DNA from: Desulfurococcales archaeon
GTDB taxonomy: Archaea; Thermoproteota; Thermoprotei_A; Sulfolobales; WAQK01
Assembly: GCA_027083135.1 (NCBI GenBank)
Contig: JALWQH010000034.1
Location: 1 to 51,425, forward strand
Length of the DNA: 51,425 nt
Reading direction: 5' to 3'
Shown: one piece after another, positions 28,605 to 47,053 of the stretch
Layout of the letters: every line of letters starts with the position of its first letter
Numbering within the stretch: the first letter of the stretch is position 1
Position numbers and translations under genes: made by a program
The notes under the pieces: model-generated
The model's database searches: none
What the model saw: the letters and a program-made list of their open reading frames with translations, nothing else
What the model was told of the DNA's origin: nothing

Positions 28605-30746
28605 GTGTTCATAGTGGGTTCGCGAGATCCCCGGCTCCTATTCTTAAGCCTAGCTATCCTGGCCTTAGTTGTAGCGATGCCTCCAGCAGCCTCCGCCTAC
28701 ACACCGCCTCCTAGTCACAGGGTAGGATTAGCTGATGCGCCGAAGCAGTATGTGCAGGGTGTGCTTGAAGGAAGGGCTACTGCAAGCCTCATCAGAGATA
28801 ATGTTGCCTCAATGCTCTCCGCGCTTAGGGAGAGGGGGGTAGATATAAATGCAGTATACCAGGAGGCTGAGAAATGGTTCTCTAATCTCCCCTCCTATGT
28901 AGCCTTGGAGCTTAGGGGTTTGGCTGATGGTAGTGGTGTTGGTCTTCGGGACATTGTTCTGCTCAACTATGCTGGGGAGAGCTTGTTCGGGGAGGAGTGC
29001 ACCGCGGCAGTCATAGCCCCAAACCTAACCCAAACCCACACACCAATAATATGGAAAAACAGGGATGTTGGATATAGATGGGTGCAGCACCAGGTGATCA
29101 CTGTTGTCAATGATGGGCAGGGCTACAGATTCGTAGCCATAACCACGGCTGGATATTGGGGCGTGGCTATGGGTGTTAATGAGAAGGGCTTAGCCGTGGT
29201 CAACACTGCTGTATCCGTGAAGTACTCTAACCCTAATCCTAGGTGGGGGAATCTTGACCTAATCCGCCTTATACTGTATAATGCCTCCACGGTGGAGGAA
29301 GCCTATAGGCTGCTGAACTCCACTGTGGGGAAGTATAGTGGCTCCTCGTTCCTAGTGGTTGATCCACATAAGGCTGCCGTCATCGATGTTGTCGGTGATC
29401 ACCTGCAGGTGATAACATATGCTAGCAGCTTCCTCGTCAGAACTAATCACTGGGTAGGCGTGGCTCCGAAAGAACTGTGGCCCTATCAGAAACACTCCTA
29501 TAGTAATAGTAGCTCCACTGTTCAACGCTACATGGCGGCATACAAGGCTCTGGTGAACCTCAGCAGCGATGGTGTAATATCCTTTAAGGACATGCTGGAA
29601 CTGGCACGTAATACTGGGAACGGGTACTCCTATAATTCCCCCTGCCGGTTCCCCAAGCATCCAGGCGCTCCTAAGGAGGCTGTGAGGGAGGCAGCTACTG
29701 TGAGCTCAGCGATAATTTCGCCTGATCCCAATGATCCTGGACTAACGGTTATGTGGGCTTCCCTGGGTAATCCCCTGACAACCCTCTTCATACCTGTGAG
29801 CGTCACGCTAAGCAACTATACCACCCAGTCAGTGGAGCTTAGGAATCCTAGCACGGATGATGAGTGGATGTTCAAGCTGCTGGCAAGCGCCGAGCCATGG
29901 CTGGCAAGCGAGGATCTAAGGGTCCTCCTCTTCAATGAGGAGAGAGGCATGGCGTTCAAGGATCCCGGCCTCTTTAATAATATTAGAAGCCTCATGACGG
30001 ACACCGAGCTGGCAGTGTGGAACTACATGGGCAGTGTGGATGATTTCCTCTTCAACGCTACAGCCCATATAAATATGGAGAATGAGACTGTGAGCCTGAT
30101 AAATGAGACTGAGACACACCTTGGAGAAATATTATCGCTGCTCAATGCTTCCACAGAATATAACTTCTCATCAATAAAGGAGCCCTTCCTAAGAATCTAC
30201 ATGTCGCTTTACGTCTCGCTTAGATCAGATGCCTGGGGCCTCTACGCTGAGACAGGGGAGAAGGTGTGGGATGATGTTGAAGGCATGTTCCTCCACGCAT
30301 ACTACGATGCGAAAGACATGCTTCCAGCAATGGTTGTAGGCTCACTTTACCCTGCTACGGTGACGGCGACTGAAACGGTAAGCACTACTGTGACGAGCAT
30401 TAAGACGGAGACCACAACGGTTTCTGAGACCTATACCAGCACATACACTTCAACTACTACTAGGACGGAGACCCTTGTGAAGACCGCTACTAAGACTCTT
30501 ACATCCACTCTGCCTACAACAATATATAAGACTAGGACGGCAACTGTGACGTCGCCTAAAACAATTACAAGTACAGTTACTCAGAGCAAGACTGTTAAGA
30601 CAACTGAGACAAAAATAATTCCAACAACTCTGACAAGCATAACAACTACTACTCTAAGGGAGACTAAGGCATCCTACCTGGTGATCACACTAATAGTAGG
30701 ACTAGTCATAGGTGCAGCCATAATGATACCTAGGAGGCACGGATAA
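28605..30746 (+). CDS. Secreted C45-type Ntn hydrolase on a Thr-rich membrane stalk
   Basis: A 713-residue extracellular protein. A signal peptide occupies about residues 1-31 (hydrophobic core ending AASA). The catalytic N-terminal nucleophile is probably Cys132 in EECTAAVIAPN, followed by IIWKNRDVGYRW, AMGVNEKGLAVVNTAVS and SSFLVVDPHKAAVIDV, the pattern of the acyl-CoA:6-aminopenicillanate acyltransferase / C45 peptidase family. Residues about 584-690 are almost only Thr, Ser, Val and charged residues, a probable O-glycosylated stalk, and a C-terminal helix (LVITLIVGLVIGAAIMI) with an RRHG tail anchors it. Several N-x-S/T sites are present. Substrate unknown. Confidence 0.78.
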   Translation: MFIVGSRDPRLLFLSLAILALVVAMPPAASAYTPPPSHRVGLADAPKQYVQGVLEGRATASLIRDNVASMLSALRERGVDINAVYQEAEKWFSNLPSYVALELRGLADGSGVGLRDIVLLNYAGESLFGEECTAAVIAPNLTQTHTPIIWKNRDVGYRWVQHQVITVVNDGQGYRFVAITTAGYWGVAMGVNEKGLAVVNTAVSVKYSNPNPRWGNLDLIRLILYNASTVEEAYRLLNSTVGKYSGSSFLVVDPHKAAVIDVVGDHLQVITYASSFLVRTNHWVGVAPKELWPYQKHSYSNSSSTVQRYMAAYKALVNLSSDGVISFKDMLELARNTGNGYSYNSPCRFPKHPGAPKEAVREAATVSSAIISPDPNDPGLTVMWASLGNPLTTLFIPVSVTLSNYTTQSVELRNPSTDDEWMFKLLASAEPWLASEDLRVLLFNEERGMAFKDPGLFNNIRSLMTDTELAVWNYMGSVDDFLFNATAHINMENETVSLINETETHLGEILSLLNASTEYNFSSIKEPFLRIYMSLYVSLRSDAWGLYAETGEKVWDDVEGMFLHAYYDAKDMLPAMVVGSLYPATVTATETVSTTVTSIKTETTTVSETYTSTYTSTTTRTETLVKTATKTLTSTLPTTIYKTRTATVTSPKTITSTVTQSKTVKTTETKIIPTTLTSITTTTLRETKASYLVITLIVGLVIGAAIMIPRRHG

Positions 30747-31104: not shown

Positions 31105-32070
31105 TTAAACAGTGTTTTTAACTGCTTTAACAATGTTCTGCAGCTTTAATAGTCCTATTTTATATGCCTCCTCCTGATCCTCTGTGGCTCCTTGGAGAGC
31201 CTTGAAGCCGCAGTCGGCTGAGGCGTAGTCTACTCTGCCTCCAGCAGCCTCTGAGACTTTTTTCAGCAGGCCTCTGATCTCCTCCACGCTCTCCACGGTA
31301 GGGTTCCTCGAGCTGGCCAGTCCCGGCGAGAGCGTCTTGTCTCCCTTCTCCAGATCCTCTCTGCTTATTGATGATATGTTGGAGGGGCTATCCTTGAACT
31401 CGAAGTTAAGTATGTTGAGCTTATCCACCGATGCTAGGAGTGAGAAGAGCCTCCCGCTTATCCGCCCACATACATGTACCCCCCTCATATATGCGCCTCC
31501 AGCTTTCCCAGCAATATAGCTGAGGTTCTCGGCTATGCTCTCCTCAGTGTGCCCGTAGAGTATTCTCCTCCTACCAACTATTACGCCCAGCATGGGTTCA
31601 TCCATGAACACCAGGCTGTATCCTAGTTCAGCCATATATGAGGCGTTCATGGCTACATACTCCTTGAAGAAGGAGTCAACAATATCTCTCCTCGCAATCA
31701 TTGTTGACCTTAAGCCTCCATTCCCTCCGGCGACTAGGACTTCCCCTGCAAGCGTATAGGCTCCTGTCACAGGGCCTCTGAGCCCCTTAAACCCCATTCT
31801 GCCTGCAATCCTTATGGAGGCCTCGGCTTCAGGGATCCTTATGCGGGGGGGATGCGCATTTAATAGTTCTTCAGGGTCTCCATAGTATCTGCCGCCATAC
31901 TTCTCAAGCAGGCCTGCATGAACAAGTGGTTCTAGAAATATGTCTATGAAGCTCCTTGTCTGAGGATATGGGGGGTAATCCAACCCTATTCCCGCTAGAT
32001 CCCTAAGTATCCTCTTCTCCACTCCGGGCGCTGGGTCTAGGGGGAAGCTGCCTACATGCGTGGTATTCAT
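31105..32070 (-). CDS. Core methionine synthase (MetE C-terminal-type, folate-domain-free)
   Basis: About 321 residues from ATG 32070 (MNTTHVGSFPLDPAPG). Only the homocysteine/zinc half of MetE is present: HVGSFPL start, FMDEPMLG, the zinc ligands in RGVHVCGR (His-x-Cys) and SADCGF (Cys). Known core-MetE proteins of archaea use methylcobalamin or a methylated corrinoid protein as donor. That fits the adjacent divergent corrinoid-protein gene. The frame continues to 32142 but overlaps the neighbour's start; a TATA-like ATTAAACC at about 32093-32102 supports a leaderless start at 32070. Confidence 0.85.
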   Translation of the reverse strand: MNTTHVGSFPLDPAPGVEKRILRDLAGIGLDYPPYPQTRSFIDIFLEPLVHAGLLEKYGGRYYGDPEELLNAHPPRIRIPEAEASIRIAGRMGFKGLRGPVTGAYTLAGEVLVAGGNGGLRSTMIARRDIVDSFFKEYVAMNASYMAELGYSLVFMDEPMLGVIVGRRRILYGHTEESIAENLSYIAGKAGGAYMRGVHVCGRISGRLFSLLASVDKLNILNFEFKDSPSNISSISREDLEKGDKTLSPGLASSRNPTVESVEEIRGLLKKVSEAAGGRVDYASADCGFKALQGATEDQEEAYKIGLLKLQNIVKAVKNTV

Positions 32071-32092
32071 GGCGTGTCCCAGACGCATAGGG

Positions 32093-32110
32093 TTTAATTC
32101 ATATTTATCC
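32093..32110. promoter_or_regulatory. Bidirectional promoter between methionine synthase and corrinoid protein
   Basis: The short AT-rich patch contains ATATTTATCC (rightward, placing a start near 32132 before ATG 32141) and, on the other strand, ATTAAACC (leftward, placing a start near 32070). The compact layout suggests coordinate control of the two genes. Confidence 0.4.
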
Positions 32111-32140
32111 TTGGCGAGCCTAGTAGGGGTGGAGTGATGC

Positions 32141-32809
32141 ATGGGGAGCCTGGAGGACGCTTACAGAAGGATTGAGGAGTGCCTAGTGGATCTCGATGCT
32201 GGATGTGTGGAGGAGGCTGTGGAGGATGCGTTGAAGAGGGGTTCAAAAGCCACTGACATCATACTAGGCCCTATGAGCAGGGCTATGGATGAGATCGGCA
32301 GGCTCTACGAGGAGGGGGAGTACTTCATAGCAGAGCTACTAGAAGCCGCGGAGATCTTCAAGTCCATTATGAATAGGCTTGAACCAATGCTTAAAGAGGA
32401 GGCTGGAGGCGGATCGAGGAGGACTAGGAGAGACATTGTAATAGTGCTTGGAACAGTTAGAGGCGATATACATGACATAGGTAAAACCCTCGTTAAAATC
32501 ATGTTGCAGGCTTCAGGCTACACGGTCATAGATCTAGGGGTCGACGTGCCTGCTGAGAGGTTCGCTGATGCCGTGGAGCGGCATGGGGCTAGGATAGTCG
32601 GTATGAGCGCTCTCCTCACAACGACCATGAGGTATATGCGCCGGGTAGTCGAGGAGCTTGAGAGGCGGGGGCTTAGGGGGAAGGTGTACGTGCTGATAGG
32701 CGGTGCTCCTACAAGCCCTGAGTACGCTGAGAAGATAGGCGCCGATGCGTGGGCTAGGGATGCCGTGGATGCTGTCAGAGTTGTTTCAAGGCTGGTGGGG
32801 GAGAGTTGA
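32141..32809 (+). CDS. Corrinoid (B12-binding) methyl-carrier protein
   Basis: A 222-residue protein of the MtbC/MttC/MtaC type: N-terminal four-helix cap (VEDALKRGSKATDIILGPMSRAMDEIGRLYEEGEYFIAELLEAAEIF) and a Rossmann-like cobalamin domain with the DxHxxG motif D109-x-H111-x-x-G114 (GDIHDIGK), the serine-rich SALLTTT loop and GGAPTS. The His is the expected lower cobalt ligand. It would carry the methyl group between an MtrH-type methyltransferase and the core methionine synthase. It ends four bases into the activator gene. Confidence 0.9.
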   Translation: MGSLEDAYRRIEECLVDLDAGCVEEAVEDALKRGSKATDIILGPMSRAMDEIGRLYEEGEYFIAELLEAAEIFKSIMNRLEPMLKEEAGGGSRRTRRDIVIVLGTVRGDIHDIGKTLVKIMLQASGYTVIDLGVDVPAERFADAVERHGARIVGMSALLTTTMRYMRRVVEELERRGLRGKVYVLIGGAPTSPEYAEKIGADAWARDAVDAVRVVSRLVGES

Positions 32810-34446
32810 CGAGGCATGTGATCCATGTTAAAGGCTATGGCGACGTAGAGGCTGAGCACGGGTCGAATCTAGGCAGGATCCTGGCTTCAAAAGGCATCCT
32901 ACCGCTCCCATGTGGAGGTAGAGGGTTCTGCGGCCAATGCGTGGTTAGGGTTAAGGGCCCTGTATCCCCTCCCACGGGGAACGAGCTTGTGAGGAGGCTG
33001 GGAGGAGATCTCAGGCTGGCATGCCAGACACGTGTGCTCGGAGACCTGGAGGTCGAGCTTCTCTACAAGCCTCTCCCCAAGGTATCATCGATCTCAATGC
33101 ATCTAGAGGTCACGAAGCCGCGGCCCATGTTCACCATTATAGAGCCGCTGCCCGGATACCCTGTTTATAGGGGAGGCCTACCTGTAGAGGCTTCCCTGAA
33201 GCTCAGCTTCAAGCCTGGCAGCCTCGTAGGATGCTGCGGCTCTGTGAGGGGGGCTGTAAGCGGGGATCCTCTTGTAAGCCTCGTTGATCTAGGTACAACT
33301 AAGATCGCCTACCAGCTGTTAGATGTGGGGGGAGGCCTCGTAGGCGAGGGTGTCATATCCAATCCTCTCTCAGCCTACGGCGCGGATATTATAACGAGGC
33401 TTACCGCCGCATTAGAGGATTCCGAGGCTTCTGAAAAGATGAGGAGCATGCTGGTGGAGGCTGTAGCCTCCATAACACCTATGGATAGGGCGGCGCTAAT
33501 AGCTGTTGCAGGTAACAGTGTTATGGAGAGCCTCCTCCTAGGACTGCCTTTAGAGCAGCTTGGAGAGAAGCCTTTTCAGCCCTTTATTGCAGGGCCTTTT
33601 ACAGGGAGCCTTAGAGGAGCAGCATTATGGGTTGCCCCGATGATCGGGGGCTTCGTGGGCGGAGATGCTGCGGCGGATCTAGCAGCAGCCATAGGCTTGA
33701 AGGCGAGATCCCCGTTCCTCATAATTGATCTGGGGACAAACACGGAGGTGCTTCTCTATACGGGTAAGACGCTCTATGCTGCCAGTACTCCTGCGGGACC
33801 TGCCTTCGAGGAGCATGTTGAGAGGGGGGCAGGTGTAGGGGCGGCGGGGATAAGCAGGGTCAGGGTAGCCGGGATTGATGGGAAGGGGAAGCCTAGATTC
33901 GAGGTCAGTGTTGCGGGTGAAGGCGAGCCCCTAGGGCTCCTAGGCTCAGGCGTCATAAGCCTGGCTGCAGAGCTGTCACGCCATGGTTTTATAGGTGAGG
34001 ATGGGAGGATTAGGAGAGGGTATGTGAGGATCCGGGGGGTTAAGGCTATTAGGATAGGTAGGGGGCTTCTCGGAGACATATATTTTACTCAGAGGGATGT
34101 GAGGGAGTTTCAGAAAGCCATGGCTTCAATTAAGGCTGCCTGGCGCATAGTGCTTGGCGAGGCTGGGGTTAAGCCCAGTGATCTGAGAACCGTTTTCGTT
34201 GCAGGTAATCTTGGAAGCAGTGTTGATCCGGGGGATCTCTTATACCTTGGCCTCATACCTCCTGTAGGGGAGGAAAACGTTGTATCCACTGGTAACATGG
34301 TTTTACCAGGCCTTAAGGCCGTGGTCTTCGACTCGGAGGTTAGGGGGAGGGTTGAAGGGATCATGGGATCCGCGCATTTAGTTAAACTCGCCGAGCATGA
34401 GGGCTTTATGAATGAGTGGGTTAGGGGGTTGTCCTTCCCTAGATGA
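32806..34446 (+). CDS. RACo-like reductive activator of corrinoid protein (2Fe-2S plus ASKHA)
   Basis: A 546-residue protein: an N-terminal plant-type [2Fe-2S] domain with Cys36, 42, 45 and 73 (PCGGRGFCGQC, LACQT), a linker, and an actin-like ATPase domain with two nucleotide motifs (VSLVDLGTTKIAYQLL and LIIDLGTNTEVLLYTG), as in the RACo/DUF4445 family. Such proteins use ATP to reduce inactive Co(II) to Co(I) in corrinoid proteins. TTG 32806 overlaps the corrinoid-protein stop codon and follows GGGGGAG. The 3' end overlaps the convergent MetF gene by 8 bases. Confidence 0.88.
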   Translation: MTRHVIHVKGYGDVEAEHGSNLGRILASKGILPLPCGGRGFCGQCVVRVKGPVSPPTGNELVRRLGGDLRLACQTRVLGDLEVELLYKPLPKVSSISMHLEVTKPRPMFTIIEPLPGYPVYRGGLPVEASLKLSFKPGSLVGCCGSVRGAVSGDPLVSLVDLGTTKIAYQLLDVGGGLVGEGVISNPLSAYGADIITRLTAALEDSEASEKMRSMLVEAVASITPMDRAALIAVAGNSVMESLLLGLPLEQLGEKPFQPFIAGPFTGSLRGAALWVAPMIGGFVGGDAAADLAAAIGLKARSPFLIIDLGTNTEVLLYTGKTLYAASTPAGPAFEEHVERGAGVGAAGISRVRVAGIDGKGKPRFEVSVAGEGEPLGLLGSGVISLAAELSRHGFIGEDGRIRRGYVRIRGVKAIRIGRGLLGDIYFTQRDVREFQKAMASIKAAWRIVLGEAGVKPSDLRTVFVAGNLGSSVDPGDLLYLGLIPPVGEENVVSTGNMVLPGLKAVVFDSEVRGRVEGIMGSAHLVKLAEHEGFMNEWVRGLSFPR

Positions 34447-35536
34447 CCTCCCTGATCCTTTCAGCAGTATTTATTGCTGCATCCACGTTGCCCATTGTGA
34501 GGACATGTATGCCTACCACTCCCTCTAGATCCATTATTCTTGAGGCAAGGCTTGCAGCATAATCGTATGCTCCTCTCAGCCCCCTCCTAGACACAGCGTC
34601 CATGTAGGCTTGGGGCACGCTTATCCCCATGTATTTCTCCACCATTCTAAGGGTCTCAGCTCTTCCTGCTACAAGTATGCTTGCTATTAGAGGAGTGTCT
34701 ACGCCTATGCTCCGCATGGTTTCCATGAAGGCTGAGAGAACATTGTATGAGAATATAGGCTGTGTTTCAGCGAACTCCGCTCCGGCCCTCCTCTTCTTCG
34801 CTAGTCTCAGGGCCTCCAGTCTCGGAGGCTTGAAGTATGGGTTAACTGCTACTCCCACATGTATTGTTCGGGGAACCCTTACCTTGGCTCCCGAGGGTGT
34901 TCTGCCGAGATCAACCATTATTCTAGCCATGTATACTAGGCGGACTGAGTCGAGGTCGAATACTGGTTTAGGGGCCTCGGCCCCCATGAGGCCAGGCCAA
35001 TCCCCCGTAACCGCCAGCATGTTTCCAACGCCGTGTAGGCCTAGGGCGAGGATCAATGCTTCCAGCTGAAGCCTGCTCTTATCCTTACATGACACCTGTA
35101 CTACGGGTTCTACTCCCAGCCTGGCTGCAAGTATTCCGAGGGCTGCAGGATCTACGTGGGGTAAGCCTAGAGGAGTGTCAACGAAGTTGACGGCTGTGAA
35201 TATTTCTCCAAGCCTCTTCAAATCATCTTCTATTCTGCTTGGATGAGGCTTGCTTCCAGCAACATACTCGTAGCTTAGGATTGGACCCCCCCTCATGATC
35301 TCCTCCATGAGCCTTGTGGAGGGGTTCCTAGGCTTAGGCCTGTATCCTGTTACCTTGAATCCCTCGTCCAGTATGATTGTGTGGAAGGCATAGTGGTCGG
35401 GGTTTTCAAGGTACTTTTCAACCCATGGGCACTTACCCCCCGTCACCTCGCATACGTTGCCGCTTCCCCCGCCGCAGGGGCCGTTGTACATGAGCTTTGG
35501 GCATCCCTGCACAGGCGGCCTGGATTCGACTCGCAT
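34439..35536 (-). CDS. Methylenetetrahydro(methano)pterin reductase MetF with N-terminal MetV-type domain
   Basis: About 365 residues from ATG 35536. The first 45 residues carry the MetV / MTHFR-C cysteine motif (GCPKLMYNGPCGG, NVCEV, GKCPW), normally a separate subunit or C-terminal; the rest is the MetF TIM barrel (SYEYVAGSKPHPSRIEDDLKRL, ML AVTGDWPG, AEFAETQPIFS). It should reduce methylene- to methyl-tetrahydropterin. TTG 35554 is an alternative start. It is eight to 26 bases from the MtrH-like gene on the same strand, so donor synthesis and transfer are co-transcribed. Confidence 0.85.
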   Translation of the reverse strand: MRVESRPPVQGCPKLMYNGPCGGGSGNVCEVTGGKCPWVEKYLENPDHYAFHTIILDEGFKVTGYRPKPRNPSTRLMEEIMRGGPILSYEYVAGSKPHPSRIEDDLKRLGEIFTAVNFVDTPLGLPHVDPAALGILAARLGVEPVVQVSCKDKSRLQLEALILALGLHGVGNMLAVTGDWPGLMGAEAPKPVFDLDSVRLVYMARIMVDLGRTPSGAKVRVPRTIHVGVAVNPYFKPPRLEALRLAKKRRAGAEFAETQPIFSYNVLSAFMETMRSIGVDTPLIASILVAGRAETLRMVEKYMGISVPQAYMDAVSRRGLRGAYDYAASLASRIMDLEGVVGIHVLTMGNVDAAINTAERIREVI

Positions 35537-35561
35537 GTATTCATGATTATCCAAGGCTTCG

Positions 35562-36542
35562 TCAACCCTCCTGTACGAATAGTTTCTGCACTCTTCGGAG
35601 AATCTTCCTTGAGGGGTGGTTTCTTGGAATGCGTTCTCCCTCCCTCTGCGCCAGGTATCCTAGGTATGCGTCAACCATTGCTGCGGCTGGTGCTACATAC
35701 TTTATTCTTCTCAGCGGCCCATACATTATGAAGTCTGCCCCCATCATTCTAAGCATCGCGGCTGTTCCGCCATGTATTCCAGCCACCTCTACTGCTGTGA
35801 ATCTCTTCTTGGATACGGGTCCAAGAGCGTTGGCGGGGGCGCATCCTGATGGAAGCCCGTACTCATCCTTCACTACCTTGACTGCTGCGGCGCTTAGCGC
35901 TATGCTTCCAGGATCAAGTACTACTGCGTCAACCATTATGCTTGTTACCTCTGCTCTAGATGCTTTTGGAAGCAGTTCTCCGAGGACTTTGAGCCTGGCT
36001 TGAGGGTGCAGGGACTCGTATGGTCTACGTGGATCGAATGCTAGGAGGATGGCTGCCTTTATTCCAGCCTCCCTTATGGCTTCAAGCTCATCTACGCTTG
36101 TATCAACAGCTATGCCGTTGGCTATCATTCTATCCTGTACTCCCATCTCTCCTGCAAGCCTGTATGCCTTCACCCTGGCTTCAGGGTCGGGGGAATCTAT
36201 GAGCACTGGCACCCCGTATTCCGATATGTGGCTTAAGATCTCTTCGACTAGGCTTCCCCTAGGTATCACGGCGTCTAATGCTAGCTGGACACCGTATTCC
36301 TCCGCCATGCTTAGGGCTTCTGAGACCTGGCTGTCAGCCTTCTCCCAGCTGATCCTCCCCTCCTCCTCGTCTAGCCAGAGCTTGTCGCCTCTGTGAAACA
36401 TTGTTCCTATGAGCAGCACAGGATTGTCTCCAGGCCTCCCCCCAATCTTCACGCCGCCTATGCTGACAACCTGCTGCTCCGCCTTGAAGCTTGGCCTAAG
36501 GCTGCTCTCCAATTCTTGCCTGCCTCCCTGCTCTCCATGCAT
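35562..36542 (-). CDS. MtrH-family methyltransferase
   Basis: A 326-residue MtrH-like protein: VSIGGVKIGGRPGDNPVLLIGTMFHRGDKLW, LALDAVIPRGSLVEEI, PVLIDSPDPEARVKAYRLA, GCAPANALG. In methanogens MtrH moves the methyl group of methyl-tetrahydromethanopterin to the corrinoid of MtrA; free-standing MtrH relatives pair with soluble corrinoid proteins. No other Mtr subunits are present, so the partner is probably the corrinoid protein at 32141. Upstream, ATTTTATGC-type sequence at about 36556-36568 could act as its TATA element. Confidence 0.87.
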   Translation of the reverse strand: MHGEQGGRQELESSLRPSFKAEQQVVSIGGVKIGGRPGDNPVLLIGTMFHRGDKLWLDEEEGRISWEKADSQVSEALSMAEEYGVQLALDAVIPRGSLVEEILSHISEYGVPVLIDSPDPEARVKAYRLAGEMGVQDRMIANGIAVDTSVDELEAIREAGIKAAILLAFDPRRPYESLHPQARLKVLGELLPKASRAEVTSIMVDAVVLDPGSIALSAAAVKVVKDEYGLPSGCAPANALGPVSKKRFTAVEVAGIHGGTAAMLRMMGADFIMYGPLRRIKYVAPAAAMVDAYLGYLAQREGERIPRNHPSRKILRRVQKLFVQEG

Positions 36543-36640
36543 GTACAGGTAGCCAGCATAAAATTCTAGCGTTCATCTAACATATTATTTCTTAATATAA
36601 ACATTACTTTCAAATATATGGGAAATAATGAGTGATAAAA

Positions 36641-36650
36641 TACTTATTTA
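36641..36650 (+). promoter_or_regulatory. Box A for the HdrB/LutA-like gene
   Basis: TACTTATTTA, preceded by the purine-rich GATAAAA (BRE-like), lies 38-47 bases before ATG 36688. The 145-base divergent spacer with the MtrH gene is the most AT-rich chromosomal stretch here. Confidence 0.45.
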
Positions 36651-36687
36651 GGATGTGCTGTATGCTTAGAGTGGGACTGATGCCTGT

Positions 36688-37452
36688 ATGCGTGATAGGG
36701 TGCTCTACTACGGGTACTCCTATTTGGAGAAAATAGGTATGAATGAGATCGATGATGCTGCTAGGGAGGTTTTGAACAGGCTTGGCGTCGAGTACATTGT
36801 GCTGAAGCCTGAGCCTGTTGGTTTGGAGTGGCTGCCTAGCCTCGGCTATACTGAAAAGGCTCTGCCGCTTATAGAGAGATTTAACAGGATACTCGACGAG
36901 CTTGATGTCTGCTGTGTTGTGACTACTCTTGGAGGCCACGTGTTGGCCTGGAATAAGAGTTTGAAGGGGCTTGGAGTGAAGCCTGCTGCTAGCTTCGTTG
37001 ACCTCACGTCATTCGTCTATGATTGGATAGAGACTACTGGTGTGAAGCCTGTGTTCAGGGAGTTTAAGAGGAGGGCTTATCTCCACTACCCCTGCTGTCT
37101 TGGGAGGAAGCTGAATACGGATGTATTCGCCAAGAAGATTAAGGGGCTTCTCAGCATGATTCCCGGCTTAGAGATAGTTGAGACTATTTACCCTGAGGTT
37201 GCTGAGGGTGTTGCATCTGCTTGGGAGTGGTCTCCATGTGCTTTAACCTCGCTGAAACTATTGTTTCCAGAGCTGCATTCTAAGGCTTTGACAGAGGAGC
37301 TACGCCCTGATCTAGAGGAGCTTAAGCCTGATTTAATTATAACTCCGTGCGCCCGCTCCGTGTGGAGCTTCCGCAGCGCGTTTGAGGCTGAGGGTATAAG
37401 GGGGATTGAGGCCATGCATACGGCTAACCTGTTAGTAAAGGTTATGGGGTGA
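36688..37452 (+). CDS. HdrB/LutA-like protein with degenerate CCG domains
   Basis: A 254-residue protein with the length and fold pattern of HdrB/LutA (two CCG repeats). The expected cysteines are incomplete: the first repeat keeps only DVCCVVTTLGGH; the second has HYPCCLGRK, WEWSPCALTS and ITPCARSVW. Canonical members have C, CC and CxxC in each repeat. It may bind one cluster, or bind it differently. Its stop overlaps the start of the LUD-type Fe-S protein, with which it probably forms a complex, and the pair lies head-to-head with MtrH and MetF. Confidence 0.7.
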   Translation: MRDRVLYYGYSYLEKIGMNEIDDAAREVLNRLGVEYIVLKPEPVGLEWLPSLGYTEKALPLIERFNRILDELDVCCVVTTLGGHVLAWNKSLKGLGVKPAASFVDLTSFVYDWIETTGVKPVFREFKRRAYLHYPCCLGRKLNTDVFAKKIKGLLSMIPGLEIVETIYPEVAEGVASAWEWSPCALTSLKLLFPELHSKALTEELRPDLEELKPDLIITPCARSVWSFRSAFEAEGIRGIEAMHTANLLVKVMG

Positions 37453-37454
37453 TC

Positions 37455-38753
37455 ATGATGGGTGTGGAGTCTCAGGATGTGTTTGCAAAGTACCGTGAGA
37501 TGCTGGCCAGGGTGGCTACTGAGACCGAGGTTCCAAAGGCTCTTAGAAGGGCTGTAACGTCTTATAGGGGTAACGTGGCCAGGGTTTTGAAGCTCTTCCC
37601 TGATACTCTCCAACTAGCCCAGGAGGTACGCAGGATCAAGGAGTTCTCAATCGATCATTTGGACGAGCTTGTCGATGCTGCTTGCAGGAGCTTTGAGCGG
37701 AATAAGGTTCACTGCCATCTTGCAAGGGATGCTGCTGAGGCTAACAGGATTGTGGGTGAGATAGTTGGTTCAGGCAAGCTTGTCGTTAAGGGTAAATCCA
37801 TGGTGACCGAGGAGATTGGTTTGAGGGAGTATTTGGAGGGGCTTGGAAACGAGGTCTGGGAGACTGATCTAGGAGAACTAATAATACAGCTAGCAGGAGA
37901 GAGGCCGATGCATCTCACCTCCCCCAGCATACATATGACTAGGGAGAGGGTGGCAGAGCTCTTCAGGGAGAAGCTCGGCGTTGATGTTGAGCCTAATATT
38001 CCGGAACTAGTGGCTGCTGCCCGCCGCTTCCTGAGGGATAAGCTGGTGAACGCTGATGTAGGTATAAGCGGCGCCAATGCTGTTGCAGCTGAGACTGGAA
38101 GCATTGTGACCATTGAGAATGAGGGTAATATTAGGCTGGCTACAGGCCTTCCACCAGTCTACATCGCTGTCACAGGGATAGAGAAGATAGTGCCTAGGCT
38201 TAGGGATGCCATGATGGTTGCTGAAACCGCGTGGAGGTTTGCAGGGTATGTTGCCCCAGCCTACGTCAACGTGATTTCCTCTCCCAGCAAGACAGGCGAT
38301 ATTGAGAAGACCATAACTTATGGTGCGCAGGGACCTAGGGAGATGCATGTGGTGCTGGTGGATAACGGTCGCTCTGAGATGGCTAAGCACCCCGTGTTGA
38401 AGGAGGCTCTCTACTGCCTTAAATGCGGGGCATGCATGCTTGAATGCCCCATATTCGACCTCGTTGCAGGGAACTATGGGGACAAGTATCCTGGAGGCAT
38501 AGGCCTTGTGTGGAGCTACTTCACAGGAGGGGATAAGCAGCGCGTAGCGGCTATGCTCTACCTGTGCGCAATGTGCTACCGCTGCAAGGAGAGATGCCCG
38601 CTGAGCATAGATACGCCTAAAATGATAGTAGCTCTTAGAAACATGCTCGCCAAGGAGGGGATAGTGCCGCCGCAAGTCGCTAAGAATGCTGAAGAGACCC
38701 TGAAGGCGAATGAAAAGATACTCGAGGAGCTTGAGAAGAAGGTTTTAGGGTAA
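37455..38753 (+). CDS. LutB/LldF-like LUD-domain iron-sulfur protein
   Basis: About 432 residues from ATG 37455 (preceded by GGGGTGATC). The LUD domain includes KLVVKGKSMVTEEIGLREYLEGLG, ELAGERPMHLTSPSIHM and ANAVAAETGSIVTIENEGN; the C-terminal domain has two [4Fe-4S] motifs, CLKCGACMLECP and CAMCYRCKERCP. Family members include the lactate oxidase subunit LutB and related electron-transfer proteins. With the HdrB/LutA-like partner and no LutC or lactate permease nearby, a role in feeding electrons to MetF or in corrinoid reduction is an alternative to lactate use. Confidence 0.8.
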   Translation: MMGVESQDVFAKYREMLARVATETEVPKALRRAVTSYRGNVARVLKLFPDTLQLAQEVRRIKEFSIDHLDELVDAACRSFERNKVHCHLARDAAEANRIVGEIVGSGKLVVKGKSMVTEEIGLREYLEGLGNEVWETDLGELIIQLAGERPMHLTSPSIHMTRERVAELFREKLGVDVEPNIPELVAAARRFLRDKLVNADVGISGANAVAAETGSIVTIENEGNIRLATGLPPVYIAVTGIEKIVPRLRDAMMVAETAWRFAGYVAPAYVNVISSPSKTGDIEKTITYGAQGPREMHVVLVDNGRSEMAKHPVLKEALYCLKCGACMLECPIFDLVAGNYGDKYPGGIGLVWSYFTGGDKQRVAAMLYLCAMCYRCKERCPLSIDTPKMIVALRNMLAKEGIVPPQVAKNAEETLKANEKILEELEKKVLG

Positions 38754-38768: not shown

Positions 38769-39197
38769 CTAACATTGCTCTTTATTTTCCCTCTTCTCAG
38801 CGTATGGCTTAAGAACCTGTTTGGCCGCGTATTGTCTAGGTGTGCGCGGGGGTGCCCGAGCTAGGTCAAAGGGGTCGGGCTTAGGACCCGATGGCGCAGG
38901 CCTGCGTGGGTTCAAATCCCACCCCCCGCACCATGTTTTAGCTATGCGGTTAACTACGTCCTCTACGATCATCTTGGCGAGGCGCTTGTACATACCTCGT
39001 TTCGGCTTGTAGTTAACTGTTAACCCTTGCTTATAGGCCTGATATAGGAGGGTCATTTCCTCGAGGGGGCCTATGTACCGTGTCACTGGCCTGCCGTCAA
39101 GCCTGTACTCCTCGTAGACGTAGAGCCTTCCCTTAATCCTCTTAACCACAAGGGTCATGGAGTCTTGCCCAACCCTAATGATAGGCTGCCTGCTCAT
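38769..39197 (-). CDS. int(N): N-terminal part of the split tyrosine integrase
   Basis: Residues 1-88 (MSRQPIIRVGQDSMTL to RIAKT) belong to the integrase; from codon 89 the frame reads antisense through the tRNA (WCGGWDLNPRRP) and ends in chromosomal DNA at 38769. KRIKGRLYVYEEYRLDGRPV and YIGPLEEM resemble N-terminal regions of archaeal SSV-like integrases. The frame position at 38933 is exactly that of int(C) at 48996, so excision would rebuild one protein of 396 residues. ATG 39197 is clear. Confidence 0.85.
   Translation of the reverse strand: MSRQPIIRVGQDSMTLVVKRIKGRLYVYEEYRLDGRPVTRYIGPLEEMTLLYQAYKQGLTVNYKPKRGMYKRLAKMIVEDVVNRIAKTWCGGWDLNPRRPAPSGPKPDPFDLARAPPRTPRQYAAKQVLKPYAEKRENKEQC
38846..38930 (+). 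tRNA. tRNA-Leu (TAG), integration target
   Basis: Acceptor GCGGGGG (38846-38852) pairs with CCCCCGC (38923-38929), discriminator A 38930, CCA to 38933. Anticodon stem TCGGG/CCCGA with loop CTTAGGA gives anticodon TAG. A long variable arm (TGGCGCAGGCCTGCG region) marks it as class II Leu. No intron. A TATA-like GGCTTAAGAA lies at about 38806-38815. Its 3' half (38877-38933) is repeated at 48940-48996: the element's insertion keeps the gene whole. Confidence 0.93.
38877..38933 (+). repeat. attL core (tRNA-Leu 3' half)
   Basis: A 57-base copy running from the anticodon stem (GGGCTTAGGACCCG) to the CCA end. It matches 48940-48996 except for one base (C at 38897, T at 48960). The identity stops right after CCA, as expected for the tRNA-derived crossover region. 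Confidence 0.93.
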
Positions 39198-39240
39198 TTA
39201 ACCCTCAGCCCCCATCACGCCTCTAGGCGTGGTTACCTGC

Positions 39241-39849
39241 TCACCGCTCACGGCCCAGCCTAGTGGCCTCTTCTCTTGCCAGCCAGCCGTATCTGTGGAG
39301 CTCGTCTATGATGGTTTGAAGCACTGTGTCGTAGGCACGTATCCACGATGATATGGTGGCGTTGATCGCCTCTTCCACGTCTTCGCAGAACTTGCTGGGC
39401 CCATAGAAGTTGAAGATTGTGGAGCTTAGGAGCGGTCTTCTAGGGTTTAGGCAGGTTTCTGCTCTTCCTTCTATATCGTCTCCATACTTCTTTTTTAGCC
39501 TGTTTTCCAGCTCTTTTGCCCTCTGCATTGCTTTTTCATCCGCATACTTGTCTGGGTGGCTGGCGCCCAGCTTCTCTGATACTGCTTTCCTCACGTCTGG
39601 GGGCAGTATGTTCCATAATGCCAGTATCCTCGCCCTATAGTTGTCCCGCAGCCTGGTATCATAGTGGGCTTTTGCTGAGGCTTCCATGGCTCTGGCTATG
39701 GCGGAGCTCAGCACCCCCACGTAGGTCGGCATAATGTATTGTGGCGTGGATGCCTGGGGTTTCCCACCTGCCTGCCTTGATGCTGGCCTCACCTCTGCCT
39801 CACCTCTCGCGGCCCAGCCTGGTGGCCTCGGCCTTGACAAGCCAGCCAT
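39241..39849 (-). CDS. Element protein of unknown function, copy 1 of a tandem pair
   Basis: A 202-residue soluble protein, Lys/Arg/Glu-rich. It is a diverged duplicate of the next gene upstream: shared blocks are YIMPTYVGVLS, ARAM, ALWNILPPDVRK, VSEKLGASHPDKY, and the C-terminal DELHRYGWLAREEATRLGRER. The N-terminal 30 residues overlap the neighbour's end and are low complexity, so the true start may be a later GTG. No known domain is recognised. Confidence 0.6.
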   Translation of the reverse strand: MAGLSRPRPPGWAARGEAEVRPASRQAGGKPQASTPQYIMPTYVGVLSSAIARAMEASAKAHYDTRLRDNYRARILALWNILPPDVRKAVSEKLGASHPDKYADEKAMQRAKELENRLKKKYGDDIEGRAETCLNPRRPLLSSTIFNFYGPSKFCEDVEEAINATISSWIRAYDTVLQTIIDELHRYGWLAREEATRLGRER

Positions 39850-40399
39850 GATAGTAGAGGGCGTCTATGATTGTTCGGAGCACCTTGTCAAGGGCGTCCG
39901 CCTTTGCCGAGAGGAGGCTGCGTTCCACGCTCTTCACATCATCTAGGACTTCTGGGCATTCGAAGAGACTGCGATAGAGGTGTTTAGAATCCAGTTTTTT
40001 CGGCTCTATGCCCATTCCTTTAAGACGTTTGATCATTTCTTCCTCTTCTATTTCTAGGCAGTGTGCCAGGTTGCTGTAGCCGTGGCGTTTGTTCAGCCAG
40101 CTCCACAGCTTTTTCTCCTTTTCCTTCTCTATTCTGGCCACATAGGCGTCTGGGTGGCTGGCGCCCAGCTTCTCCGCCACGTCTCTGCGTACATCGGGTG
40201 TGAGTATGTTCCACAGCGCCATCACGCTTGACCTGAGAAGGCTTACCTTCCTCACATTGCGGTAGGTTTGCTGAACAGCGTTCATGGCCCTGGCTATCCC
40301 CTCGCTTAGTACTCCGATGTAGGTGGGCATGATGTACTTGGGGGCTGAGGACTGGGGTTTAGGCTGGGTTTGAGGTTTGGGTTTAGACATGGATTCCAC
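39800..40399 (-). CDS. Element protein of unknown function, copy 2 of a tandem pair
   Basis: A 199-residue paralog of the downstream gene, sharing YIMPTYIGVLS, ALWNILTPDVRRDVAEKLGASHPDAY and the ending DALYYHGWLVKAEATRLGRER. The Pro/Gln/Lys-rich first 20 residues are probably disordered. The conserved segments lie at both ends; the middle, including a charged helix (EKEKEKKLWSWLNKR), diverges. It overlaps the P-loop/HTH gene by 17 bases, so it is in the main operon. Confidence 0.65.
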   Translation of the reverse strand: MESMSKPKPQTQPKPQSSAPKYIMPTYIGVLSEGIARAMNAVQQTYRNVRKVSLLRSSVMALWNILTPDVRRDVAEKLGASHPDAYVARIEKEKEKKLWSWLNKRHGYSNLAHCLEIEEEEMIKRLKGMGIEPKKLDSKHLYRSLFECPEVLDDVKSVERSLLSAKADALDKVLRTIIDALYYHGWLVKAEATRLGRER

Positions 40400-41411
40400 C
40401 CTTTGTGAGCTTCTTTTTGACCTGGGAGATCGTGATGTGTGAGACGTGTAAGCGTCTCGCGATCTCGCGGTAGGAGAGGCCTTTCCCGAGGAGCTCGGCT
40501 ATCAGGGCTTCCTTGTCTCCGCGCCCCTCTGGGCTCTTCCTGCCCGCGGCTCTGGCCAGGTTTTGGAGCACGTAGTCTGTGTAGGTCTTCCGCTTCTCAT
40601 AGTAGTAGGGGTAGGCGTCCAGGCTCCGCTTAAACTCGTCTATGAATACGCGTTTAATCATAGTGTCCCCGCTGGGCATGACTAGGAGCCTGTAGCCTCT
40701 CGCCACGCTCCACTCCTTATCCTTCTTGGTGACTAGGACCAGCAGGCTGTCCACGCTTCTGAAGTGCCTGAGTATGAATGAGGGGTTAGGCGTGTTCATT
40801 AGAAGGGTGTTGAGCTTGACTCTGGCCGTCTGGAACAATGCGCTCATCAGCATCACCTTCCTCTTATCAATGAAGTAGAGGTATGAGGAGCCGTGGACCC
40901 CTGCATCATCCCATACTAGGACGGGTATCCTGGCCTCTGATTCCAGGAGCCTGTCTATCATGTCGTCAAGGCTGAACAACACGTATCGGTCGATAAGATG
41001 CTTCCAGGTCAGCCTTCTATTCAGGTAGCCCAGCACCTCGGCTGCAACCTTGATGTTGTAGACGCTCTTACCCACTCCCTGGCGCCCAAAGGTTATGACT
41101 GAGAGGAAGCCGTGTGTGTACCATTCATTGAGTATGAGGTCGGAGAGCACGAAGCCCGTGCTCCGCCTACGCGGGATTTCCTGAGCCTCTATGCCAGCAT
41201 TCTCCTCGAGGAGCACGGCCTCATCCACCGTCTCCACAGCCGCAGCCGCCTCGAGGAAGCTTGTAGCACGTGTAGCAGGCATGTAGCGCTCCCAAGTATG
41301 AGATAACGCTTGAAATATACCTACACTACGACCAGTAGCGGCTTGTAGCGGGCCTAGCCTCAGCCTAGTATAGTATGTATGTACGTGTGTATATAATGCT
41401 GTAGCAGCCAT
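40383..41411 (-). CDS. P-loop ATPase with C-terminal helix-turn-helix
   Basis: About 342 residues from ATG 41411, which overlaps the primase stop (TTAATGG) and follows GGGGGAG. Walker A is FGRQGVGKS (about residues 108-116), Walker B is IPVLVWDDAG, and TLLMNTPNPSFILRHFR resembles a sensor region. The last 40 residues form a helix-turn-helix (ALIAELLGKGLSYREIARRLHVSHITISQVKKKL). A TATA-like ATTATATACAC on this strand at about 41385-41396 hints at an internal promoter and a shorter product from ATG 41282 (MPATRATSF). Proteins like this may act in plasmid partition or copy control. Confidence 0.7.
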   Translation of the reverse strand: MAATALYTHVHTYYTRLRLGPLQAATGRSVGIFQALSHTWERYMPATRATSFLEAAAAVETVDEAVLLEENAGIEAQEIPRRRSTGFVLSDLILNEWYTHGFLSVITFGRQGVGKSVYNIKVAAEVLGYLNRRLTWKHLIDRYVLFSLDDMIDRLLESEARIPVLVWDDAGVHGSSYLYFIDKRKVMLMSALFQTARVKLNTLLMNTPNPSFILRHFRSVDSLLVLVTKKDKEWSVARGYRLLVMPSGDTMIKRVFIDEFKRSLDAYPYYYEKRKTYTDYVLQNLARAAGRKSPEGRGDKEALIAELLGKGLSYREIARRLHVSHITISQVKKKLTKGGIHV

Positions 41412-42814
41412 TAAGGCTCCCCCGCCACGTAGAATTTGACGCTGCGTGAGGGCGGCTCTTCGAGCTTGCCTGGCCCCACGTCTACCCACTCGCCATCCAC
41501 CAGGAATTTTCTGCCGAGTAGGCCTCTCTGGGCTAGGCTTCTAAGCAGCCTCGAGTAGCTGCTCCACTCCTCAGCCGTGAGGGAGCCGTGCCTGGACTCC
41601 AGCCACCTCTTAAAGTCATCATACCCGAATTCCCGTAGGCCAGTCTCCTCGAGGAACCTGCCCACCAAGCCTAGGCTGGAGGGATCCCATTCTGCCTGGC
41701 GGCCCAGGCTCTTCTTGCCTAGAGCTCCTGGTGAGAAGCGGGGCTGTTTTCCAATGGTCTGGGTTATGATGGCGTAGAGTTCTGGGTCCTTCTGCCTCAC
41801 TGTCTCGAGGCTTGGCGGGTGCTTGCCGTAGGATAATGCGCTTCTCACGTAGCTCTCGGCCTCGGCTCTGCTTATCCTGCTGCTCCCCCTGTAGTCTGGG
41901 CGCTTCTCGCTTCTCTCAGCGAAGTCTAGGAGCGTCTCCACGGCCTCGTCTTCAGGCATCTTGAGGGTGACTGCCAGGTATTTTGAGGCTATGTAGAATA
42001 TGAAGCGTCTACGCCCGTCTGGCAGGCCCCGCCTCAATATTTCTTCTATCCAGGGTATGCTGCGCGGCCTGTATCCATGCTTCTTGGAGAGGAAGCGTTT
42101 AGCCTGCCTTGCAGCCTGTCTTGCCAGGGCTTTTGAGACGGCTTGGCCTACCAGGCTTCTGGGCAGGGGGTGTGAGAGGTAGGGCTGCAGGCTGAAGCTC
42201 TCAGGCTCGATGGGTTTGAAGTCTGTGTCGAGGGGTGTCACAGTGTTGCCTGTTCCGTGGTGCTTGGTGTAGGGGGGCCTTGAGAGCACCGTGGGCCTTA
42301 TCACCACATAGTCTAGGCTTCTGAGCCCTAGGCCCGTTATGCCTAGAAGGCCTGCCAGCTCGGAGTAGATGTCTCCAGGTGTTTCTCGGCTGAGCATGCT
42401 TACATCTATGACTGTTGGGAGCCAGGCATGGATGTGTAGGCCTCTGCCACCAGTGTAGAGTACCAGGGGCTCGCAGTAGCTTCTCAGATGCTCTGCGAGC
42501 CTGCGTCCCTCGCTGAAAACCTTGTCTAGCGTGACACTGCCCTTGGCATCGAGGTCAAGCATGAGGCGCTCCACGCCTACAAGCAGGCCGTGGCCAGCAT
42601 AATACGATATAGATATGTAGACTGAGAACCCTGAGTCCATCCTCCCCTGGATCCACTGGGCCAGCCCATGGGCCTTCTCTGGCGGCCAGTAGTGCTGGCT
42701 GGGGGTTCCAAGCATCCTGCCCCACCCGAGCCCAGCCATCTCCTCGAGGCCGAGGCGCCCAGCAAACCATGCCTGCCAGACCTCATGTACATCCACGGCC
42801 CAGCACCCCCTCAT
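41411..42814 (-). CDS. Archaeo-eukaryotic primase-polymerase (prim-pol)
   Basis: About 467 residues from ATG 42814 (MRGCWAVDVHEVWQ). Motif I is VERLMLDLDAKG (Asp87, Asp89), motif II is VLYTGGRGLHIHAW (residues 118-131), and motif III is RPPYTKHHGTGNTVTP, the same three motifs as PriS. A helical-bundle domain (RRRFIFYIASKYLAVTLKMPEDEAVETLLDF) and a C-terminal winged-helix-like end follow. It would prime and perhaps copy the element. The frame stays open to 42967 through an iteron cluster; those 51 residues (His- and Gly-rich) look non-coding. Confidence 0.83.
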   Translation of the reverse strand: MRGCWAVDVHEVWQAWFAGRLGLEEMAGLGWGRMLGTPSQHYWPPEKAHGLAQWIQGRMDSGFSVYISISYYAGHGLLVGVERLMLDLDAKGSVTLDKVFSEGRRLAEHLRSYCEPLVLYTGGRGLHIHAWLPTVIDVSMLSRETPGDIYSELAGLLGITGLGLRSLDYVVIRPTVLSRPPYTKHHGTGNTVTPLDTDFKPIEPESFSLQPYLSHPLPRSLVGQAVSKALARQAARQAKRFLSKKHGYRPRSIPWIEEILRRGLPDGRRRFIFYIASKYLAVTLKMPEDEAVETLLDFAERSEKRPDYRGSSRISRAEAESYVRSALSYGKHPPSLETVRQKDPELYAIITQTIGKQPRFSPGALGKKSLGRQAEWDPSSLGLVGRFLEETGLREFGYDDFKRWLESRHGSLTAEEWSSYSRLLRSLAQRGLLGRKFLVDGEWVDVGPGKLEEPPSRSVKFYVAGEP

Positions 42815-42931
42815 CGGACAGGCATCGGACATGGATCGGACAAGAACGGACAAGCCCTCATGTCCGATCCCTTGATCACCATGTCCGTTTCCATGGATTT
42901 CATGGTGATTTTCATGGTGTAAGATCGGACA
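42813..42931. repeat. TGTCCGAT iteron cluster A
   Basis: Perfect octamers ATCGGACA or TGTCCGAT start at 42813, 42824, 42835, 42861 (opposite orientation) and 42924, with partial copies at 42845 and 42882. The first three are spaced exactly 11 bases apart, about one helix turn. The cluster lies at the start of the prim-pol gene. It resembles plasmid origin iterons or an operator array. Confidence 0.75.
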
Positions 42932-42963
42932 CACGGTGTTGTAGAGAGTGAGAGAGAATTTTT
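42924..42963 (-). repeat. Long inverted repeat, left arm
   Basis: Reads, on the minus strand, as an A-run, a CT-rich TTCTCTCTC tract, ACAAC and GTGTGTCCGAT. It matches the right arm at 43543-43583 at roughly 80 percent of positions, in opposite orientation, and joins directly to iteron cluster A. Confidence 0.7.
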
Positions 42964-42995
42964 CCATGGTTTTCCGAGGGTGGGTGAAAGTATTC

Positions 42996-43319
42996 CTAGG
43001 CGGTGATCCATGGTGCTGTCAGCCTCCTCAGCTTCTCAGCCAGCCTGGCCCCAGTCTCGGGCAGAGGGGCATCTTCCTCCAGCATAGCGTCTCTGAGGCC
43101 TCTGGGCAGGTTGTAGCATCCCTCACCCTTCTCGAGGAACCCCTTCTCCACTAGGCTCCTAGCCACGGCCTGGGGGTCCTTGATGCCCCTCACCCTGAGA
43201 TCCCTGTGTGCTGCGAGCTCCCCCACTGAGACCTCTTCGAGGAAGTAGGCCATGGCCTCTAGCTCCGCGGCCCCCAGCTCTCTGAGCATCCTTCTAAGCC
43301 AGGTGTTCAGGCCAGGCAT
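42996..43319 (-). CDS. Winged-helix DNA-binding protein
   Basis: A 107-residue protein with a winged-helix pattern: LEAMAYFLEEVSVGELAAHRDL, QAVARSLVEKGFLEKGEGCYNL (recognition helix plus wing) and a C-terminal amphipathic helix. It lies exactly between the two TGTCCGAT clusters and the inverted-repeat arms, and overlaps the helicase-like gene by 13 bases. It is a natural candidate to bind the iterons. It resembles the C-terminal domain of the helicase-like protein, perhaps by duplication. Confidence 0.65.
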   Translation of the reverse strand: MPGLNTWLRRMLRELGAAELEAMAYFLEEVSVGELAAHRDLRVRGIKDPQAVARSLVEKGFLEKGEGCYNLPRGLRDAMLEEDAPLPETGARLAEKLRRLTAPWITA

Positions 43320-45286: not shown

Positions 45287-45915
45287 ATCTCCTCACCTCC
45301 ACGAGAAGCATAACACCTCAATGCATATGGACAAAAACTGCAAAGAATGCTGGGCTCGGGTCTTGGGGGCTTGTTCTCGAGGATTGCTCGATGGAGTGTC
45401 CTGGCCCTCTCCACTAGGAGACGCCAGAGCTCGGGGTCCCATTGGTGCCTGTAGACTCTGACCAGGCCGTCCTTCTTCTTGATGTAGACAACATAGCCGT
45501 GCTTGGCTCTCAGCATGTAGAGATAAGCGTTAAGCTGCATTACGTGCGAGCGGTAGGGGGACTCAGGCGTCTTTGAAGCCGTCTTGAGCTCCACTACAAT
45601 GCTGTTCTCGGGGTGGTATAGGTCTGCGTGGCCTGCAAGCTTGAAGCCTCCGAGGTCAGCGTAGGCCTCCACCTCGCTCAGCCAGCCCTGCCCAGCCAGG
45701 TATGCCTGGAGAGCCTCATGAACACCATTACCGATGGCGTAGACTATGAAGCGTGGATGAGCCTCGCTTAAACCGTATTTCCTCTCATACCAGGCCTTTC
45801 GCAGACACCCCGTAGCCTCGGATACATGGATGACATTGGGCCTATACTGCCTGGCCCTATGCTTAGCGATTTCATAAAACCAGCGATAGACCACGCTTGC
45901 CGTCAGCTCAGCCAT
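45283..45915 (-). CDS. Cas4-like RecB-family nuclease
   Basis: About 210 residues from ATG 45915, eight bases after GGAGG. The PD-(D/E)xK core is GFKLAGHADLYHPENSIVVELKTASKTPESPY with catalytic D, E-x-K and downstream HVMQLNAYLYML (motif QxxxY). Four cysteines, GCLRKAWYERKY plus CSFCPYALRC at the C-terminus, can bind the [4Fe-4S] cluster of Cas4. There is no CRISPR array or cas1/cas2 in the window; such stand-alone Cas4 proteins occur on archaeal viruses and plasmids and may serve in replication or recombination of the element. Confidence 0.85.
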   Translation of the reverse strand: MAELTASVVYRWFYEIAKHRARQYRPNVIHVSEATGCLRKAWYERKYGLSEAHPRFIVYAIGNGVHEALQAYLAGQGWLSEVEAYADLGGFKLAGHADLYHPENSIVVELKTASKTPESPYRSHVMQLNAYLYMLRAKHGYVVYIKKKDGLVRVYRHQWDPELWRLLVERARTLHRAILENKPPRPEPSILCSFCPYALRCYASRGGEEM

Positions 45916-46321
45916 CACCATCGCCTCCACTAAAGCCTTGCATAAAGGGACATCGAGGGGTGCCGTAGAGCCCGCAGACCCCTGAGTCCGAGAAGCATGA
46001 GGATAAGCAGGGATGCTCCTCGAGCCAGAGGTGTAGCTCCTGGGGCACGAGGTAAAGCAGGGGCCTTGAAGTCCTCCATGGGACGAGTAGGCCTAGCCTG
46101 GCAAGGTGTCTTAGGGCTAGGCCCACCTCAGTGTAAGCATTGCGGCCCTCGAGGCCTAGGGCCTGAACAACCCGTTTAGCGCTCAGCGCCTTAGCCCCAG
46201 GATGAAGCCTGAGGTAGGTAAGCACGAGGCCTAAGCCTCTAGCCAGTCTAAGCTTGTAAATTCTCGAAGTGGTTTTAGGGCGTGAAGAAAAAGATGTGAC
46301 CAGGGGAGCCCGTATCGCCAT
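45908..46321 (-). CDS. Winged-helix regulator with Cys-rich tail
   Basis: A 137-residue protein: ALSAKRVVQALGLEGRNAYTEVGLALRHLARLGLLVPW is a winged-helix DNA-binding domain. The tail (CLSSCFSDSGVCGLYGTPRCPF) has four cysteines that could bind a metal. It overlaps the Cas4-like gene by about 8-23 bases and is in the leftward operon. Confidence 0.65.
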   Translation of the reverse strand: MAIRAPLVTSFSSRPKTTSRIYKLRLARGLGLVLTYLRLHPGAKALSAKRVVQALGLEGRNAYTEVGLALRHLARLGLLVPWRTSRPLLYLVPQELHLWLEEHPCLSSCFSDSGVCGLYGTPRCPFMQGFSGGDGDG

Positions 46322-46327
46322 AGGTCC

Positions 46328-46654: not shown

Positions 46655-46656
46655 GC

Positions 46657-46773: not shown

Positions 46774-46804
46774 ACTTCGAGTTTGGGCCTTGGAATACAT
46801 CCCT

Positions 46805-47021: not shown

Positions 47022-47053
47022 TTTTGTAATATTTCCTCTCAGATGGGCTAAAA

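Follow-up and report, generated by a model that had tools for sequence, protein, structure and literature searches.

A stretch of 51,425 nucleotides from a Desulfurococcales archaeon (contig JALWQH010000034.1, assembly GCA_027083135.1), called the window hereafter, carries a gene cluster predicted to serve corrinoid-dependent methionine synthesis. Seven open reading frames (ORFs) are found where an earlier reading of the DNA (the original prediction) had placed them. The following five form the putative synthase unit analyzed here:

31105..32070, minus strand: MetEc, predicted core MetE-type methionine synthase without folate domain (PF01717, zinc ligands, fold of the AlphaFold2 (AF2) model)
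32141..32809, plus strand: CorP, small corrinoid protein of MetH/MtgC/MtbC type (PF02310 and PF02607, DIHDIG)
32806..34446, plus strand: RACo/AcsV-type ATP-dependent corrinoid reductive activator with an N-terminal 2Fe-2S domain (PF14574, PF17651, PF00111)
34439..35536, minus strand: MetF, methylene-pterin reductase with an N-terminal MetV-like cysteine domain (PF02219 and PF12225)
35562..36542, minus strand: stand-alone MtrH-family methyl-pterin:corrinoid methyltransferase (PF02007, 142.9 bits)

MetEc and CorP are divergent and share a short region between them, and CorP overlaps RACo by 4 bases. MtrH and then MetF, both on the minus strand with MtrH upstream, converge on RACo with an 8-base overlap. 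This layout is consistent with coordinated expression of the cluster. The longest MetEc ORF opens at 32142; homology begins only around M25 (position 32070), yielding a protein of 321 residues, and the start originally chosen is thus correct. For MetF, an alternative TTG start at 35554 is possible.

MetEc and its partner proteins

PF01717 (27.3 bits, cut-off 21) is the sole Pfam domain of MetEc, which is therefore a barrel without the N-terminal folate half. The zinc ligands H199, C201, E224, and C287, arranged as HxC...E...C, as well as D157, are invariant in the 12 homologues (39-57% identical to the window protein) on which conservation was judged, and the homocysteine-binding S8 is kept in at least 90% of them. 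Among sequences of solved structures, the MetEc profile matches MetE alone, and the four zinc ligands pair with T. maritima MetE. The AF2 model (predicted local distance difference test, pLDDT, 93.1) retrieves MetE structures first from the PDB, methyltransferase/UroD structures coming later. On the strength of its barrel-only architecture and its zinc- and homocysteine-binding residues, MetEc is a core methionine synthase in the broad sense, with homocysteine methylation as its predicted activity.

Core synthases of the MesA, MesB, and MesC families consist of a MetE barrel without the folate half, harbor a conserved zinc site, and presumably receive their methyl group from a corrinoid protein (PMC7857596, PMC7005905). 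MetEc shares all these features, the corrinoid donor being likewise presumed. In a tree of 90 rows, which contains long branches and is rooted for drawing only, the 78 rows of MetEc type part from split MetE and from the MesA-like proteins of family f14 with a support of 100/100. Against the PRK00957 model, which we take to represent MesA, MetEc reaches 50.6 bits (cut-off 258); two further synthase models give 36.7 (cut-off 387) and 30.8 bits (cut-off 406). Identity with MesA is rejected on the PRK00957 score together with the separation from the MesA-like clade, whose proteins score 253.5 bits. The zinc-site spacings of MetEc (C to E 23, E to C 63) differ from those of MesB Q3Z939 (19 and 76; PMC7857596). 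Most MesC members display HxH at the zinc site and an E to C spacing of 89 (PMC7857596), whereas HxC is invariant in MetEc. Furthermore, MesB and MesC have been reported only together with the Wood-Ljungdahl pathway, MtrA or CoFeSP being the predicted donors of core synthases (PMC7857596, PMC7005905). The genome of the window has no match to the CoFeSP domain PF03599, and the absence of CoFeSP first proposed for the cluster thus extends genome-wide. Set apart in this way by the published descriptions, MetEc is unlikely to belong to MesB or MesC.

CorP possesses two B12-binding domains, PF02310 and PF02607, with the DxHxxG motif present as DIHDIG at residue 109. The solved chains closest to it come from small corrinoid proteins and from the B12 domain of MetH, and the MetH model matches it with 151 bits. 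In RACo, PF00111 (2Fe-2S, Fer2), PF17651 (middle), and PF14574 (C-terminal ASKHA) are all above cut-off, which places it in the RACo/AcsV class; the AcsV model scores 166 bits, the nearest solved protein is RACo 3zyy (phmmer E=3.9e-33), and the cysteine motif reads Cx5Cx2C. MetF combines PF02219 and PF12225, carries the cysteine motif CPKLMYNGPCGG, and finds its best PDB match in Thermus MTHFR (E=1.1e-7). MtrH belongs to the MtrH/MtgA family (PF02007, cut-off 22.8), falling below the curated cut-offs of narrower NCBIfam models, and its nearest solved protein is 6sj8, a methylcorrinoid:tetrahydrofolate methyltransferase (E=2.9e-43). It is the sole Mtr subunit seen in the cluster, no genome-wide search for MtrA having been made. 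Family assignments in the original prediction are thereby borne out above curated cut-offs for MetEc, CorP, RACo, MetF, and MtrH, as well as for a neighboring LUD protein (see the last section).

Linkage, co-occurrence, and methyl inputs

Gene neighborhoods were compared at 50 loci, namely the window and 49 loci on named contigs, all from a single scan of named genome contigs. Desulfurococcales-type archaea (Ignisphaera, Thermogladius, Staphylothermus, Zestosphaera), other Thermoproteota, and Bathyarchaeota account for nearly all of the 49, and the neighbor counts are lower bounds owing to contig ends. CorP is found near MetEc at 26 of the 50 loci (24 of them within 2 kb), RACo at 27, MtrH at 14, and MetF or a relative at 19 (16 compact MetF-like, 3 full MetF), while MttB occurs at 4 and UroD at 3. 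The arrangement, originally noted in one crenarchaeon, is not peculiar to it and recurs across Desulfurococcales-type archaea.

The window and one close group (L052, L053, L049) are the only places where full MetF stands beside MtrH. The others have a MetF-like protein of 222-277 residues, below the Pfam threshold, whose AF2 model (pLDDT 92.2) has MTHFR structures as top matches and hence an MTHFR fold. Such compact proteins (~220-280 residues) adjoin MetEc or MtrH at L054, L055, L067, L069, L072, L076, L078, L094, and others, and may represent an uncharacterised type of methylene-pterin reductase.

MtrH itself, present in the window as a putative methyl input as originally proposed, is one of several. 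An MttB-family protein (PF06253, 244-252 bits) lies beside CorP and MetEc at L061, L070, L073, L079, and L221, and a UroD-family protein at L062, L080, and L081, in both cases without adjacent MtrH. Because MttB and UroD take the place of MtrH, the pairing of MetEc with CorP persists while the methyl input changes; the simplest account would be that CorPs of one kind are loaded from different methyl sources. At L080 (13535-17494) and L081 (8218-12153), a GH38 alpha-mannosidase comes after the UroD-family methyltransferase next to CorP, which raises the tentative idea that methylated sugars are demethylated there. In Ignisphaera-type genomes (family f3), MetEc is solitary, most of the genomes have CoFeSP, and UroD or MttB genes accompany several CorPs elsewhere, a pattern that fits CoFeSP as the putative methyl donor of MetEc. 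In f14 genomes (L231, L233, L234), a single run comprises CorP, MtrH, and a synthase of the separate MesA-like lineage.

Genome content was surveyed in 40 related genomes and, at the level of the phylum, in 349. Of the 40 relatives, 13 have strong MetEc; 12 of these 13 also have strong CorP, which all 27 others lack (hypergeometric P 2e-9, uncorrected for kinship), the exception being G025, in which the region is contig-broken. MtrH occurs in 12 of the 40, every one of them MetEc-positive. Folate-type split MetE (PF01717 >200 bits) is present in 23 of the 40 genomes and coincides with MetEc in G004 only. Phylum-wide, strong MetEc (at least 198 bits) is found in 53 genomes and split MetE in 55, with both in a single one, again G004, against 8.4 expected. 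Both types occur within each of families f2 and f3. The homocysteine domain of MetH/BHMT (PF02574) has no match in the 40 genomes, and PF01717 and PF02574 searches found no second methionine synthase domain in the window's own genome. The genome comparison with and without metE and metH suggested at the outset yields a pattern of replacement between MetEc and split MetE (overlap 1/40) and no PF02574 (0/40). Full CoFeSP is lacking in 35 of the 53 strong MetEc genomes and present in 18. Near-complete exclusion of split MetE leads to the prediction of a biosynthetic role for the MetEc unit.

Proposed methionine synthase unit and rival readings

The locus probably encodes a modular corrinoid-dependent methionine synthase, resembling MetH but with a MetE-type homocysteine module, fed by CorP and maintained by RACo. 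MetF would reduce methylene-pterin to methyl-pterin, from which MtrH would transfer the methyl group to CorP with its corrinoid in the Co(I) state. MetEc would then combine zinc-bound homocysteine with methyl-CorP, releasing methionine and Co(I)-CorP, while RACo, using ATP and a low-potential electron, would rescue CorP oxidized to Co(II). The unit would amount to a MetH split into separate proteins, with RACo in place of reactivation dependent on S-adenosylmethionine (SAM). We infer each of these reactions, the direction of flow, the type of pterin, and a direct contact between MetEc and CorP. A self-contained corrinoid methionine unit without CoFeSP, as first proposed, is supported by the conserved linkage, the co-occurrence, the exclusion of split MetE, and the absent MetH-type homocysteine domain. 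This prediction of function, drawn from sequence comparison, is well supported within the existing frame of a core synthase and its corrinoid donor.

Several known systems display partial resemblance. MetH and the split MtgC-MtgD (PMC12478193) share the chemical logic and a homologous B12 domain; the MetH-type homocysteine domain, however, is replaced by a MetE-type barrel in these genomes, and SAM-dependent reactivation by RACo. The glycine betaine system MtgABC of Desulfitobacterium provides, with MtrH-family MtgA and corrinoid MtgC, some of the nearest characterised relatives, but MtgABC demethylates, whereas flow in the window would run toward homocysteine, and MttB is absent from the window. 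Archaeal folate-type split MetE has a homologous catalytic barrel and the same end product, but presumably uses a folate-type donor without corrinoid, and resides nearly always in genomes other than those with MetEc. Compared with MesA, MesB, and MesC, MetEc is linked to a dedicated small CorP, RACo, and MtrH, and most MetEc genomes are devoid of CoFeSP. Linkage of a corrinoid protein, MtrH, and metE has been noted before in Candidatus Methanomethylicus, an anabolic role being left possible (PMC7886697); the three genes are adjacent in both cases. The Methanomethylicus-like run of f14 differs in having a MesA-like synthase outside the MetEc clade, without adjacent RACo or MetF.

In a broader version, toward which we lean slightly, MetEc would be a fifth core synthase family with a dedicated, RACo-maintained CorP as donor and a plug-in methyl supply set by the carbon source: MtrH with MetF, MttB- or UroD-type proteins, or CoFeSP in relatives with the Wood-Ljungdahl pathway. 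No earlier description of the Desulfurococcales cluster was found in a literature search that left most subscription journals out of reach, nor, in the literature searched, one of the apparently interchangeable methyl inputs around MetEc and CorP. The physiological methyl donor of core synthases has been in question since the Methanobacterium enzyme was studied in 1999 (cited in PMC7005905). From genome context, a small soluble protein, dedicated to this role and presumably stable to heat, now emerges as the candidate donor partner, along with its activator, and five proteins would suffice to put the donor question to the test in vitro. The range of core synthases also widens to archaea that have no Wood-Ljungdahl pathway, and a methionine route is suggested for many Desulfurococcales-type genomes devoid of MetE and MetH. 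A MetH-like machine built from different parts would be useful in annotating metabolism and in thinking about early methyl metabolism.

Several observations weigh against the proposed unit. G004 carries both MetEc and split MetE (C1:244851-245807 and 590901-591821), possibly a replacement in progress. Its MetEc was considered as a pseudogene and this was rejected, the frame being open and the apparent stops lying in an over-extended N-terminus. In G001 and G002, two genomes of the same family, the parts occur but are spread over separate contigs, a number of which break near the genes, and their MetEc do not group with that of the window in the tree. The scattering in relatives named beforehand as grounds for refutation is therefore seen in these two genomes, but linkage is widespread elsewhere, even if many deeper MetEc relatives stand alone and linkage is not universal. 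G002 also has a partial CdhD match. The co-occurrence and exclusion statistics ignore kinship, and shared ancestry inflates their P values. Finally, of the 10 MetEc-positive relatives (own genome included) without full CoFeSP, 8 lack CobS. This gene has no match in the window's own genome, G001, G002, G011, G013, G015, G021, and G025, is missing in most MtrH-type genomes, and is present in 17 of the 27 MetEc-negative relatives. Where CobS is missing, the corrinoid must be imported or made otherwise; the corrinoid-dependent MetEc genomes without CobS look like corrinoid importers that would need outside corrinoid for methionine.

A catabolic or salvage unit, in which CorP and MtrH would carry an outside methyl group to a pterin and MetEc would act on another thiol (e.g., of methanethiol type), is unlikely. 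CorP-MtrH pairs have been interpreted as methylotrophic (PMC7886697, PMC9723716), the nearest solved MtrH relative works in the catabolic direction, MttB and UroD locus variants exist, and UroD and MetE proteins have a common fold. The window cluster, however, is devoid of any substrate-specific methyltransferase, a MetF or MetF-like gene is an immediate neighbor in most MtrH-type loci, the homocysteine-binding positions of MetEc are conserved, and the exclusion of split MetE again speaks for biosynthesis. Still less probable is the use by MetEc of free methylcobalamin or of another corrinoid protein, with CorP, RACo, and MtrH as a separate neighboring system. MesA and MesB are active with free methylcobalamin in vitro (PMC7857596, PMC7005905), and MetEc stands alone in many lineages, CoFeSP being available in the 18 genomes mentioned above; but the other 35 have no full CoFeSP, within the order the presence of CorP matches that of MetEc almost perfectly, and the two remain neighbors when the methyl input changes. 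Least probable of all is that a LutA/LutB-like pair, proposed at first as part of the system, feeds electrons to MetF or RACo. The pair directly adjoins MtrH in the window, but is divergent from it, its first gene is weakly CCG-like, and it lies beside MetEc at that locus alone (1/50) and at none of the 49 others. It is for this lack of conservation that the pair was rejected as the electron supply and judged to be outside the methionine synthase unit.

Neighboring genes

The two genes of this pair are:

36688..37452, plus strand: cysteine-rich LutA/HdrB-like protein, neighbor judged outside the unit (CCG only, E=0.057)
37449..38753, plus strand: LutB-like protein with LUD and 4Fe-4S domains, neighbor judged outside the unit (PF02589, Fer4, TIGR00273 358 bits)

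The first has no match to a curated family, CCG reaching 14 bits for a cut-off of 20.6. The original "HdrB/LutA-like" call is thus weak for this protein, while the family of its LUD partner stands.

On the other side of the cluster, positions 28605-30746 encode an AAT-type hydrolase (PF03417) with a hydrophobic segment at either terminus and a long Thr/Ser-rich stalk, probably a surface-anchored enzyme. At 38877-48996, the 3' end of a tRNA-Leu recurs as a direct repeat of 57 bp (98%) on both sides of ~10 kb. Within them lie a fragment of an archaeal phage integrase (PF16795), a primase protein of PriX type, and a nuclease resembling Cas4. The region resembles an integrated element of archaeal origin, its integrase split in the SSV manner.

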